Of a stretch of 64,000 bases of DNA, positions 11,876-34,760 are shown in pieces. Under the pieces are notes generated by a model. That model saw nothing but the letters and a program-made list of their open reading frames with translations. It searched no databases and was not told the origin of the DNA. The stretch is taken from positions 124,001-188,000 of the forward strand of contig NZ_QUZH01000023.1 in the NCBI RefSeq assembly GCF_009761675.1, given 5' to 3'. The DNA is from Bhargavaea sp. CC-171006 (GTDB lineage: Bacteria; Bacillota; Bacilli; Bacillales_A; Planococcaceae). Position 1 is the first letter of the stretch; every line of letters begins with the position of its first letter. The position numbers were made by a program, and so were the translations under genes.

Positions 11876-12613
11876 ATGAGATTGCTGCTTTGCGGGTACG
11901 GCGCGTCGAACAAACGCGTCGCTGCCCTTGCCAAGGAACGGGGACATGAGATTGTAGGTGTGCTGCTTTTGCGCGGCCAGTCTGCCGACGGCTATCCGGT
12001 TTACCGGCCGGATGAACGCCTGCCTGAAGCCGATGCCGTCATCGACTTCTCGCATCCTGTTCTCACAAAAGCTCTGCTTGCCGCGGACATCGGTCTCCCG
12101 CTGGTGATCGCGACTACAGGAGAGAAAGAAATATTGATCGAACAGATGAAGGAAAAGGCGGACCGTCAGCCGATATTCTTCAGTGCGAATATGAGCTACG
12201 GGGTGCATATTGTGACGGAGATTGTCCGGTATGCCACCTCCCTTCTCCCTGCCTTCGATATTGAAATGACTGAACGCCACCACCGCAAAAAGGTGGATGC
12301 GCCAAGCGGGACACTCATTAAACTGTATGACGCCATTGCGTCGGCCAGGCCGAATGTTCATCCTGTTCACGACCGGAGCCAGGAAGAAGGCGCCCGGACG
12401 GACGAGGAAATCGGTATTCATTCAGTGCGGGGCGGCACGATCACCGGTGAGCATGAGGTGCTGTTTGCCGGCCACGATGAAACAATCACCATTGCGCACC
12501 ATGCCCAGTCCAAGGACATTTTCGCATCCGGCGCCCTTGATGTTGCGGAGCGCCTGATCCATAAGGAAAACGGCTATTATACTTACGATAACCTTGGAAT
12601 CGGCGATTCCTGA
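11876..12613 (+). CDS. dapB: 4-hydroxy-tetrahydrodipicolinate reductase DapB
   Basis: A 245-residue NAD(P)H-dependent reductase, the second step of the pathway. Catalytic region ERHHRKKVDAPSGT and the substrate loop VRGGTITGEHEV are intact. The nucleotide loop reads GYGASNKRV instead of the common GxxGRMG; this is the form I know from Staphylococcus DapB (GYGAMNQRV), an enzyme that accepts both cofactors. Shares the riboswitch with dapA and starts one base after its stop. Confidence 0.95.
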   Translation: MRLLLCGYGASNKRVAALAKERGHEIVGVLLLRGQSADGYPVYRPDERLPEADAVIDFSHPVLTKALLAADIGLPLVIATTGEKEILIEQMKEKADRQPIFFSANMSYGVHIVTEIVRYATSLLPAFDIEMTERHHRKKVDAPSGTLIKLYDAIASARPNVHPVHDRSQEEGARTDEEIGIHSVRGGTITGEHEVLFAGHDETITIAHHAQSKDIFASGALDVAERLIHKENGYYTYDNLGIGDS

Positions 12614-12616
12614 GAA

Positions 12617-12650
12617 GAAAAAGCGGAGGGCGTACACCCTCCGCTTTTTC
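12617..12650 (+). terminator. Terminator of dapAB
   Basis: AAAAAGCGGAGGG (12618-12630) and CCCTCCGCTTTTT (12637-12649) form a perfect stem with a 6-nt loop; a T-run closes it. Confidence 0.93.
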
Positions 12651-12677
12651 CTATTCCAGATGTTACCGGCCGTCTGA

Positions 12678-12826
12678 TTACTCCATTCGCATGCCTAATC
12701 CCGTCATTCCACCCGTTAATTTCGTCATTAAATTTTCCGGCATGTCCGAATGACGAGATTAGCGCTTTGAATGCTGAAACCGAAACCGTGAATGACGAAA
12801 CTGATCCCAAGAATGACGAAACCGGT
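12678..12826. repeat. 21-bp phased inverted repeat array A
   Basis: Seven degenerate units with core AATGACGAAA or its complement. CTCCATT at 12681, CGTCATT at 12702 and 12723 (one orientation), then AATGACG at 12749, AATGCTG at 12770, AATGACG at 12791 and 12812 (opposite orientation). Spacing within each half is exactly 21 bp, with a 26-bp step at the turning point. The centre can fold: 12714-12729 pairs with 12749-12764 with a few wobbles. It lies between the terminators of the convergent dapB and parC. Unlike CRISPR: no constant repeat or long spacer, and the orientation flips. Confidence 0.85.
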
Positions 12827-12838
12827 GAAAAATAATAA

Positions 12839-12888
12839 AAGAGTCCCCCTGCCTGCAGCCGAAATGGCCTGCGGACAGGGGGACTCTT
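12839..12888 (-). terminator. Terminator of parEC
   Basis: AAGAGTCCCCCTG and CAGGGGGACTCTT pair over 13 bp; the inner part (CCTGCAGCC...GGCCTGCGG) can pair further. On the minus strand a T-rich tract follows the stem. It begins three bases beyond the parC stop. Confidence 0.85.
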
Positions 12889-12891
12889 CAT

Positions 12892-15338
<2,447 letters not shown>

Positions 15339-15342
<4 letters not shown>

Positions 15343-31800: not shown

Positions 31801-33210
31801 GTGAAACCATTGTTAATCACTTTGTTGGCCGCCGCCCTGTTGGCAGGATGCTCAGGCGGAACCGCGGATTCGCCCGAGCAGGTGCCGGATGAAGCGGCCG
31901 GGTCCGCCCCCGCTGCGGAAAATAAGAAGGAAACGGATCAGGCGGCATTCTCCCCCGTCGTTTTGCAAGCGGAGACGGCGGACGAGCTTGCCGCTTTGCC
32001 GCCAGGCGAGCTCACGGCCGATTTCACGATTGAAGGGGAAGCCTCCACATGGAACGGCCGGGAAGTGCCGGAAACCATCCGCGATGCTTTTCTCGACAGC
32101 GTGAAGCCTGCCGCCGAAGCGGCGGGAGATGACCCCGATGCCCTGTTCGGTGCAATCGCCGGCACACTCGGCACCCCGTCCTACAGTGAACTTGTCGGAT
32201 GGCTGGCAGAGTACGAGCCGGCCTTTGACGAGCCGCTCCTGCCCGAACCCCATGAAGTCGAATCAGAAACGCGGCCGGCCTTCCCAGAAAAGGCCGTCAT
32301 CCTCCTCGACGCCAGCTCCAGCATGCTGCTGGAAGCCGATGGGCAGCTGAAGATGGAAACCGCCAAAAGCGCGGTGAGGAGCTTCGGCCGCACAATCGGC
32401 CAGAAAAGCGACGTGGCTCTTTATGCATACGGTCATGCCGGCACACAGAACGAAGCCGACAAGGCGCTTTCCTGCGGTACCATTGAGGACATCTACCCAT
32501 CCGGGAAGTATGACGCGGAAACGTTCAACGCTGCCGTCGACGGCGTGCAGGCGGCCGGATGGACACCGCTCGCCGGCGCCATCCGCCAGGCGCGGGAAGA
32601 TCTCGCGCAGCATGAAGGCGACATCACGGTCTATGTCGTAAGCGACGGGGCGGAGACGTGCGGCGGCGACCCGGTCAAGGAAGCCGCGGCTTTCGTCAAA
32701 GACCATCCCGGACGCCACGTCGACATCATCGGCTTCCAGGTCGACGCAGAGGCGGAAAGCCAGCTGAAAGCCGTAGCCGATGCCGGGAACGGCAATTACC
32801 ATGGGGCCGACAGCCTGGAAGAGATGACCGGCGGCATGACGGAGTACTGGCTGCCGTCCGACCTCGACCTCTCCCTCCTCGTCTACCAGTCGCCGGACGG
32901 ATGGGAAAGCTCGACGGCCCTCCACCGCATATCCGAACGGGCTACACTCGCGAAGCGCGCGGCCACGAGCGAAAAGTACAGGTTCATGGGCGCTGCCGAT
33001 CTGATGCTGGAAAAAGGCCTGATCGATGAAGCCATGCGGGATGCCCTGAATGACAGGAGCATTGCACGGGAAGAAGCCCACCTCCTTATCCTGGACGGGC
33101 TCGAAGAGGAAAAGCGTAACGCGATCAACTCTGAAGTCGAGCGGATCGATGCAAAGATCGATGATTACCGCACCCGGATGGAAGCGCTGAAAAAAGAACA
33201 AGGATCCTGA
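31801..33210 (+). CDS. VWA-domain lipoprotein
   Basis: A 469-residue protein: signal peptide with lipobox LLAGC (Cys17), an acidic Ala/Glu-rich linker, a von Willebrand A domain with MIDAS AVILLDASSSM (Asp170), Thr in GWTPLAGAI and Asp in VYVVSDGAETCGG, then a helical C-terminus ending in a coiled coil. Anchored outside the membrane; metal-dependent protein binding is likely. GTG start with AGGAGGAGC upstream. It splits yolD from uvrX and is read in the opposite direction. Binding partner unknown. Confidence 0.9.
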   Translation: MKPLLITLLAAALLAGCSGGTADSPEQVPDEAAGSAPAAENKKETDQAAFSPVVLQAETADELAALPPGELTADFTIEGEASTWNGREVPETIRDAFLDSVKPAAEAAGDDPDALFGAIAGTLGTPSYSELVGWLAEYEPAFDEPLLPEPHEVESETRPAFPEKAVILLDASSSMLLEADGQLKMETAKSAVRSFGRTIGQKSDVALYAYGHAGTQNEADKALSCGTIEDIYPSGKYDAETFNAAVDGVQAAGWTPLAGAIRQAREDLAQHEGDITVYVVSDGAETCGGDPVKEAAAFVKDHPGRHVDIIGFQVDAEAESQLKAVADAGNGNYHGADSLEEMTGGMTEYWLPSDLDLSLLVYQSPDGWESSTALHRISERATLAKRAATSEKYRFMGAADLMLEKGLIDEAMRDALNDRSIAREEAHLLILDGLEEEKRNAINSEVERIDAKIDDYRTRMEALKKEQGS

Positions 33211-33284: not shown

Positions 33285-33440
33285 CAGTTTCGTCATTCGT
33301 CCTGTCGATCTCGTCATTGGGACCGGTAATTTCATCATTGGGCCCGCCATTTCGTCATTCACCGCATGAATGGCGAAACCGGAGGCGCGAATGACTAGAC
33401 TCCATCACCGAATGATGAAATCGGTGCCCTGAATGACGAA
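33285..33440. repeat. 21-bp phased inverted repeat array B
   Basis: Eight degenerate units. CGTCATT at 33291 and 33312, CATCATT at 33333, CGTCATT at 33353, then AATGGCG at 33369, AATGACT at 33390, AATGATG at 33411 and AATGACG at 33432. Steps are 21, 21, 20 bp, then 21, 21, 21 bp, with the orientation flip between 33359 and 33369. Same core and architecture as the array at 12678-12826. The centre folds into a hairpin (CATTTCGTCATTCA with TGAATGGCGAAA). Lies between the convergent VWA and uvrX genes; the last unit merges with the hairpin behind uvrX. Confidence 0.87.
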
Positions 33441-33468: not shown

Positions 33469-34722
33469 TTACATCTTGTGGCCGCCGATCAGCTTCGCCC
33501 GCCCGACGGCGGTTCCGGCATCCGTATAGGAGACGGCGCGCAAAATGGCGGCCGGGCCGTACTTCGACCGGATTGCATCCATGGCGGCGCCGAGCTTGCG
33601 CTCCTCCCACTTGCGCGTCTCGAACAAGCTGAGCTGCATGGAGTGCTCCTCCTCCAGATTGGAAAGCGAAAGGGCGAGCCGACGGACCGGGCGGCCGTCG
33701 TGGAACTCATCAAGAAGCGTGGTGCATACCTGGTAGATGGCCATTGTCGAGTTGGTGGCCGTCTCAAGCGACCGGGAGCGGGAAAACCCTCCCCCGTACG
33801 CGTTCTCGCTGTAGCCGGCGGACAGGTGGATGGTGCGACCGGCGCGGCCTGCTTCCCGCGCGCGCCGTGCCACGTCTTCGCACATCTCCAGGATGACGGC
33901 GAGGATATCCTCCCGCTTCACGTAATCGCGGTAAAGCACCTGGCCCTTCCCATAGCTGACCTGCCCCGCGATAAGCGGTGCACCGAGCTCCGACAGGTCG
34001 ATGCCCCATGCATGGTGGTACAGCTGGTTGCCCATGACGCCGAACTCCTTCTCCAACAGCTTGAGATCGGCATGGGCAAGGTCGCCGACGGAAAAGATGC
34101 CAAGGCTGTTCAGCCGGCGCTCCATCCGGCGGCCGTTTCCCCACATTCCCGACAGCGGGGCGACCGGCCACAGTTTTTCCGGGACATCCCCGTACGTCCA
34201 TCTGGCGAATCCGGTCTTTTTTGCGTCCAGGTCGAGGGCGATCTTCGCCAATAGCATGTTCGGCCCCATACCGATGGCGGCCGGCATCTGGAACTGGGCA
34301 AGCAGCTGGTCCTGGATCCGCTTTACGGTCTCTTCCGGAGGCCCCCACAGCCGCTCCGTCCCGCCGAGATCGACAAACGCCTCGTCGATGCTGTACACGT
34401 GGATGGCTTCCTTCGGCACGTATTCGCCAAGGAGCCGGGTGATCTCCATCGACACCCGGACGTAGAAGCCCATCTTCGGTTCGATGAGCCGGATCGACGG
34501 ATCGTCCGGGATCTCATACAGCCGGTGACCCGTCCGCACACCGAACTCCCGCTTGAGCCGGGGCGAGGCCGCGAGGACGACACTCCCCTTGCGGTCGCGG
34601 TCCCCGATGATGGCGATCGGCTCCTTTAAAACGTCCAGTCCCTCGTCTGCGGCCGCGCAGCTTGCATAAAAGCTCCGCATATCCAGGCAGATGATTTTCC
34701 GGTCCGGCAGTCCCTCATACAT
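33469..34722 (-). CDS. uvrX: UvrX/YqjW-type Y-family DNA polymerase (UmuC-like)
   Basis: A 417-residue translesion polymerase. Catalytic motifs CLDMRSFYASC and VYSIDEAFVDL; thumb region with FGVMGNQLYHHAWGIDLS; clamp-binding sequence MQLSLFE near the C-terminus. Closest in type to the plasmid/chromosomal UvrX-YqjW group rather than DinB. The ATG at 34722 has GGAGG 9 nt upstream; an in-frame ATG at 34731 abuts it. A LexA box lies about 40 bp upstream. Its usual partner YolD is separated from it. Confidence 0.92.
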   Translation of the reverse strand: MYEGLPDRKIICLDMRSFYASCAAADEGLDVLKEPIAIIGDRDRKGSVVLAASPRLKREFGVRTGHRLYEIPDDPSIRLIEPKMGFYVRVSMEITRLLGEYVPKEAIHVYSIDEAFVDLGGTERLWGPPEETVKRIQDQLLAQFQMPAAIGMGPNMLLAKIALDLDAKKTGFARWTYGDVPEKLWPVAPLSGMWGNGRRMERRLNSLGIFSVGDLAHADLKLLEKEFGVMGNQLYHHAWGIDLSELGAPLIAGQVSYGKGQVLYRDYVKREDILAVILEMCEDVARRAREAGRAGRTIHLSAGYSENAYGGGFSRSRSLETATNSTMAIYQVCTTLLDEFHDGRPVRRLALSLSNLEEEHSMQLSLFETRKWEERKLGAAMDAIRSKYGPAAILRAVSYTDAGTAVGRAKLIGGHKM

Positions 34723-34760
34723 GGCGCGCATCCTCCTTTTTGATCAATATATTCGTTATA

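Follow-up and report, generated by a model that had tools for sequence, protein, structure and literature searches.

Dispersed intergenic arrays of helically phased 21-bp units in Bhargavaea, candidate sites for a cooperative DNA-binding protein

The array at 12.7 kb and its neighbourhood

The array lies in the window, the 64-kb stretch of Bhargavaea DNA analysed here, in the gap between two convergent genes. The upstream gene (11876-12613) is presumably dapB-like and the gene that faces it (12892-15342) presumably parC-like, both names being assigned from the sequence. The features of this gap, and of a second place in the window where the same family occurs, are as follows.

12617-12650, plus strand: terminator-like hairpin after the upstream dapB-like gene (inverted repeat I4, 94% complementary)
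12676-12729, minus strand: B arm, three inverted units with cores at 12681 (two mismatches), 12702 and 12723, in 21-bp steps
12730-12747, no strand: centre between the arms, 19 bp from core to core (12730-12748)
12748-12823, plus strand: A arm, four direct units with cores at 12749, 12770 (two mismatches), 12791 and 12812
12839-12888, minus strand: terminator-like hairpin of the convergent gene (inverted repeat I3, 90% complementary)
12583-12891 and 12792-13061: small ORFs overlapping the array
33291-33438, no strand: second array of the same family, four inverted and four direct units
31801-33210, plus strand: ORF to the left of the second array, without an NCBIfam match
33469-34731, minus strand: DNA polymerase IV-like gene to the right of the second array, its best model scoring below the curated cut-off

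A first reading of the DNA letters without database searches (the sequence-only reading) had described seven 21-bp units at 12678-12826 that reverse at the centre and lie between the terminators of convergent genes. The array is real and lies where it was placed, flanked by the hairpins at 12617-12650 and 12839-12888, and it belongs to a larger phenomenon than was claimed. All seven cores that had been named are in register, but five of the seven are exact: CGTCATT at 12702 and 12723, and AATGACG at 12749, 12791 and 12812. The cores at 12681 (CTCCATT) and 12770 (AATGCTG) each differ at two bases. The core positions confirm the proposed phasing, with steps of 21 bp inside either half and 26 bp over the centre, and the consensus of an A-arm unit is GAATGACGARAYY followed by about eight variable bases. 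The second array departs slightly from this scheme, with one step of 20 bp and a centre step of 16.

Such an arrangement stands out in the window. There are three exact core pairs at the 21-bp step, compared to none in 20 Markov-resampled windows. When the window was scanned for 7-mers present at least three times at one spacing between 14 and 31, spacing 21 returned the 12.7 kb array alone; spacings 25 and 30 each gave a single isolated three-copy match.

We considered and rejected the idea that the array is a coding repeat. The direct half can be read as a 7-codon repeat that is nearly stop-free in one frame (26 stops in 4242 codons), but the inverted halves, the frame-breaking centre and the nearly free spacers rule this out, as do three array-overlapping ORFs translated at other loci, which are without a Pfam match. 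On the basis of these three, the array-overlapping ORFs look spurious. Two other such ORFs have Pfam matches, to a Crp-type regulator and a histidine-kinase ATPase domain, and we take them to be neighbouring genes that run into an array.

A dispersed family with a fixed rotational setting

The sequence-only reading had suggested searching the genome and its relatives for further copies, and these turned out to be numerous. The pair AATGACG-N14-AATGACG occurs 114 times in the array's own genome, and its reversed control is absent; likewise the 13-bp motif GAATGACGARAYY occurs 167 times and its reversed control not at all. These copies form at least 31 arrays, that at 12.7 kb included, a count that draws on stretches around the core-pair places listed (100 of the 114), on DNA matches to the array at 12.7 kb and on the window. 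In the 225 kb read, 160 of 161 exact motif copies (of 167 in the genome) lie inside arrays.

In a full array, a 19-bp centre separates four inverted from four direct units. Inverted halves are present in 73 of 96 arrays from five genomes; the other 23 have direct units only, mostly five (11 arrays) or four (7 arrays). A pair at the 21-bp step was the means of finding every array, so this step carries no independent weight, unlike the centre steps. The direct search pair gives preference to no centre step, except that some own-genome arrays (contigs C27, C30 and C32) came in through similarity to the array at 12.7 kb. The 74 centre steps in this set measure 26 bp (60 cases), 25 (2), 27 (1), 14-16 (9) and 47 (2). 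The 14-16 class is one helical turn below 25-27, and 47 is 26 plus a missing unit, so that all 74 lie within 1.5 bp of 26, 15.5 or 47: the rotational setting of the two halves is fixed. A wider set of 121 arrays, partly biased in that it adds the parC loci and loci from a model that includes the centre, gives 100 centre steps, of which 86 are at 25-27, 10 at 14-16, 3 at 46-47 and 1 at 18; the last, in L079, has a shortened gap, and the other 99 are on phase. The suggestion that phased sites are bound cooperatively by a protein is strengthened by this difference of one turn between the centre classes, as expected of protein sites that share a face of the DNA.

The two halves are not equivalent. 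When 63 dyads were oriented by likelihood, a polarity emerged in which the A arm has four well conserved units, and the inverted B arm has other spacer preferences and fades outward. The innermost units are the best conserved, above all in the B arm, and we found no conserved sequence past the outer units. This layout recalls the ends of Tn7-type elements (TnsB site arrays), which carry about four contiguous sites of about 21 bp with a second, inverted set. The arrays are similar in having about four 21-bp sites and an inverted set, but they have no visible cargo, tip sequence or target duplication, and it is their innermost rather than their outermost units that are best conserved.

Inverted halves could also pair with each other. 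The sequence-only reading had offered a structured RNA or cruciform as an alternative. On such a view the halves would form a long hairpin, acting perhaps as a small RNA or as a terminator for both directions. The array at 12.7 kb does fold better than 199 of 200 shuffles (z -2.69), there is a weak Rfam match to PrrB_RsmZ (23.6 bits against a gathering score of 44), and both members of one column pair, 12/52, are changed in 17 of 61 arrays. However, the covariation test that the reading had called for went against it. Over 23 mirrored pairs in the 61 arrays, 72.1% of cells are paired compared to 72.7% after shuffling, with scores of 0.111 and 0.116, none of the measures rising above the shuffles, and the predicted consensus helix consists of the nearly invariant core, with no compensated pairs. 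In the 2.5 kb that surround the array no Rfam family reaches its gathering score, distinct terminator-like hairpins often stand before an array, and both the direct-only arrays (23 of the 96) and the arrays of other lineages, nearly all built of direct units, argue against a hairpin. We consider folding very improbable as the explanation. We also discarded the converse, selection against pairing: mirrored spacers at first appeared less alike than between-array permutations, which we explain by the two arm types lying in arbitrary orientation.

Where the arrays lie with respect to genes was assessed with crude ORF calling, by which the ORFs on either side are co-directional for 48 of 99 arrays, convergent for 42 and divergent for 9. 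Thus 90 of the 99 lie between convergent or co-directional ORFs, and the intergenic position beside terminators, first noticed at 12.7 kb, is upheld across the arrays; a location in convergent gaps is not the rule, given the 48 co-directional and 9 divergent cases. A terminator-like hairpin stands between gene and array at 35 of 57 3'-facing flanks compared to 3 of 25 5'-facing flanks, counted over 41 arrays of several species with orthologues included, after 22 of 63 arrays were dropped for a flanking ORF more than 300 bp away. In co-directional gaps there is a weak trend for the A arm to point toward the 3' end of the upstream gene (14 cases toward, 5 away).

The neighbouring genes share no common theme that we could find among 40 flanking proteins of genome G000. 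NCBIfam matches were obtained for 27 of these (diverse enzymes, transporters and regulators) and not for the other 13. Plasmid centromere iterons, such as those of ParR/parC and TubR/tubC, are short direct repeats in small clusters that are cooperatively bound. The arrays resemble them in being short direct repeats in small clusters; the iterons, however, are single loci beside partition genes, whereas the arrays occupy about 30 dispersed chromosomal loci. There is no partition protein among the 27 family-matched neighbours, though the 13 matchless proteins could include a novel one.

We also considered whether viruses carry the arrays. The pattern matches at least 120 stretches of viral contigs, but among the 80 matches listed each contig has a single match, apart from one with three dispersed matches; we read these as chance and did not build on them.

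Conservation among Bhargavaea genomes

To follow one site between species, we used parC loci fetched by gene, not by array. The parC-like protein is 94-96% identical to those of five named Bhargavaea records, and the array is present at the locus in all six genomes (the array's own and the five records). Mean pairwise identity across the six is 0.84 for the cores, 0.51 for the spacers and 0.49 for the centre; the terminators at 12617-12650 and 12839-12888 stand at 0.84 and 0.80. A larger set of 342 orthologous unit pairs, biased toward conservation by its need for recognisable cores, has identities of 0.82-0.99 at the seven core positions and 0.49-0.64 at spacer positions 13-20.

One unit of the parC-locus array behaves differently. 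The second A-arm unit, at 12770 in the window, reads AATGnnG, off the core at the same two bases, in four of the six genomes; it departs at three bases in the fifth, and in the sixth the next unit departs instead. It looks as though a particular place in the block accepts, or even favours, another kind of site.

Other arrays are also kept between species. In the fetched parts of five other species, at least one orthologous array with a match on both flanks exists for 25 of the 31 own arrays; for 4 of 31, neither flank finds a match among the fetched loci. The centre class, or the direct-only class, is usually kept at a site, with exceptions. The expectation of the sequence-only reading that relatives would have copies with preserved spacing is borne out. 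Maintenance is not universal. The site in G003 orthologous to L119 has no array, and this one closely aligned empty site is without a clean boundary; the site in G005 orthologous to L126 has no recognisable array. Core pairs number 28-114 in six of eight genomes of the genus and are absent from the other two. Array number thus varies, with arrays lost or gained, and so no single array looks essential.

Some local events are visible as well. Whole arrays are duplicated in tandem, three of them in L238 (from 1555 onward) and two in L127 (2797-3188), the latter with spacers in common, and four identical spacers in L135 represent a recent unit expansion. The array in L141 / L219:13519-16672 lies in a region 97-98% identical between G000 and G003, well above the 84-86% of another locus of the pair; this suggests a recent exchange of the region between the two genomes, as judged from its identity. 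The units of that array look partly decayed.

These observations bear on whether the arrays are a selfish or once-mobile interspersed repeat, MITE-like or REP/BIME-like, that is now decaying and appears conserved through recent descent. The arrays are dispersed and intergenic, their copy number differs between species, there are the local duplicates in L127 and L238, and two sister-species sites have no recognisable array. The BIME and REP elements of enterobacteria and pseudomonads are likewise dispersed, intergenic, present in both orientations, often at gene 3' ends and lineage-specific; PMC2817692 deals with these elements. The position of the arrays at gene 3' ends (90 of 99; hairpin at 35 of 57 flanks) fits that description. 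REP units, however, are palindromes associated with RAYT transposases, whereas the unit here, GAATGACGARAYY, is asymmetric and helically phased, with nearly free spacers, and RAYT was not found in eight genomes of the genus (the REP-associated transposase PF01797 in 0 of 8; control search positive in 5 of 14). Moreover, local duplicates aside, what the own-genome arrays have in common is motif and spacing, not sequence; at an orthologous locus the spacers diverge but the cores stay; no sequence is conserved beyond the outer units; and the aligned empty site lacks a clean boundary. A selfish or once-mobile repeat seems unlikely.

Related arrays with other motifs

Outside the genus the Bhargavaea pair hardly occurs. 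Over a set of 61 genomes (the own one and relatives), 11 of the more distant members have it a single time each; as the reversed control gives three matches in all, such single matches are at about chance level. A sequence-only search model run over 151 genomes of the family gave at least 26-28 matches in each of the six genomes of the genus that have 28-114 core pairs, and one weak match in each of three others. By eye, L232 and L234, apparently two of these weak matches, are coding repeats, not arrays. L233, apparently the third, was read by eye as an array in a new dialect and was found again in G004.

G004, of a sister lineage, has a distinct array family of period 21, with core GTGTYAWCAT / GTGTCAAC. 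Ten copies of the pair GTGTCAAC-N13-GTGTCAAC are present in G004, and the other 150 genomes lack it. The loci of this family (L258-L277, L290-L297) are dispersed direct 21-bp arrays; two of them, L273 and L275, additionally contain a further repeat of about 21 bp, with core AACGTTTCA. In G002, a nearby relative, the Bhargavaea pair, the GTGTYAWCAT pair and the GTGTCAAC pair are all absent.

Two more dialects came from 738 kb of relatives' parC loci, scanned for 7-mers present at least four times at one spacing between 14 and 31. Spacing 20 was found in five Sporosarcina loci and spacing 21 in L029, a Psychrobacillus locus. The scan also returned L073 (spacing 21, in an ORF) and L023 (low-complexity, eight spacings); the 21-bp repeats within the ORF at L073:8830-9060 are a caution for period-21 scans in general. 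Intergenic arrays of period 20 with core G(C/A)TCATAA lie near the start of the named Sporosarcina loci L015, L016, L017, L018 and L083, and also in L298-L309 from further genomes, with related cores GCGCATAAA and CGCTCTATC nearby. The named Psychrobacillus locus has a period-21 array at L029:7091-7222 with core CTCTCGTAY; a 130-aa ORF that overlaps it on the other strand is read as spurious. Across the 151 genomes, CTCATAA-N13-CTCATAA occurs 151 times in G139, 9 times in G110, twice in G133 and once or twice in seven others, with single matches of the reversed control in four genomes. CTCTCGTA-N13-CTCTCGTA is confined to six genomes of one genus, with 72, 41, 17, 4, 3 and 1 copies (control 0); the other 145, several of that same genus included, lack it. 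For some genomes, the link to Sporosarcina or Psychrobacillus rests on the core shared with L015-L018, L083 and L029. The likeness between lineages is one of layout; common descent of the motifs is not implied.

The lineage dialects, together with a short motif, intergenic position and proximity to terminators, recall the self-recognition signals for DNA uptake. DUS and USS share these features; uptake-sequence dialects are the subject of PMC3630211. The Bhargavaea motif differs in occurring almost exclusively in phased arrays, with solitary copies nearly absent (160 of 161 copies read lie in arrays). Copies of DUS are solitary or in single inverted pairs, and present in large numbers; compared to this pattern, about 170 motifs in about 30 clusters are far fewer and more clustered. 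An uptake signal is an explanation to which we attach hardly any weight.

The long CTCTCGTA arrays of the Psychrobacillus type (L430-L459) suggest how phase may be kept over longer distances. They are built of blocks of 21-bp steps split by mostly shorter steps. Three to five units make up 45 of the 64 interior blocks, and the 93 block separators include 19 bp (46 times), 40 bp, that is 21 + 19 (10 times), 18 bp (8 times) and 20 bp (7 times). The best common helical period in 22 CTCTCGTA arrays of at least eight units is 10.24 bp. None of 200 shuffles of the step order was as coherent as the observed order (0.823 vs 0.733, sd 0.023), a result that may partly reflect duplication of whole blocks, visible by eye in L439, which also gives a regular order. 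The data fit shorter steps that restore phase.

Duplicated blocks raise the question of neutral tandem-repeat satellites arising by replication slippage. The unit expansion in L135, with its four identical spacers, and the block repeats in L439 are what slippage would produce. Spacers mostly differ within an array, however, yet the same core recurs at about 30 loci, and cores evolve more slowly than spacers at the parC locus. Slippage alone would not hold the core genome-wide, nor the centre at 26 bp or one turn less, and as a general account it is highly improbable.

A putative cooperative DNA-binding protein

The arrays are dispersed, regularly spaced and maintained at orthologous sites, their cores are conserved while their spacers diverge, and they lie mostly beyond gene ends and terminators. 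We propose that the array at 12.7 kb is one of about 30 dispersed non-coding arrays of phased double-stranded DNA sites for a putative cooperative DNA-binding protein, perhaps an architectural one, and we put the probability of this reading at roughly 60%. The 21-bp unit would consist of an asymmetric site of about 13 bp (GAATGACGARAYY) and about eight nearly free bases. A putative sequence-specific protein would bind each unit; molecules on adjacent units, aligned on one face of the helix, would bind cooperatively, with about four to five units to a block, and two such blocks would often face each other over the centre. With two turns of DNA taken as about 20.5 bp, the value fitted on arrays of a related lineage, the phase would slip by about half a base pair per 21-bp unit. 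This slip may account for the limit of four or five units per arm, and for the shorter step that follows about three to five units in the related lineage's long arrays.

In open-access literature, compared by title and the start of the abstract, we found neither a named element nor a description of such arrays; the sequence-only reading, too, had known of none with this form. As to purpose, position alone weakly suggests that chromosome architecture or topology in untranscribed gaps would be the most likely one, a role comparable to that of BIME in enterobacteria. Since the recognised motif differs between lineages, the specificity of the protein would have to change with it. A wider proposal is tentative, and we lean against it: chromosome-wide phased arrays, in at least four lineages of one family and each with its own dialect, would be read by a rapidly re-specialising putative protein that wraps or cross-links DNA over about four to five sites and so organises the chromosome in untranscribed gaps.

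Most dispersed repeats in bacteria are palindromes or transposon remnants; here the motif and its helical phase are conserved, and little else. A probe of four units offers a direct handle for finding the putative protein, and the arrays are a ready-made test of how DNA maintains helical phase across hundreds of base pairs. Their presence in the same gene gaps across species, with motifs that are specific to each lineage, would imply a sequence-specific DNA-binding system, not previously described, whose specificity changes.
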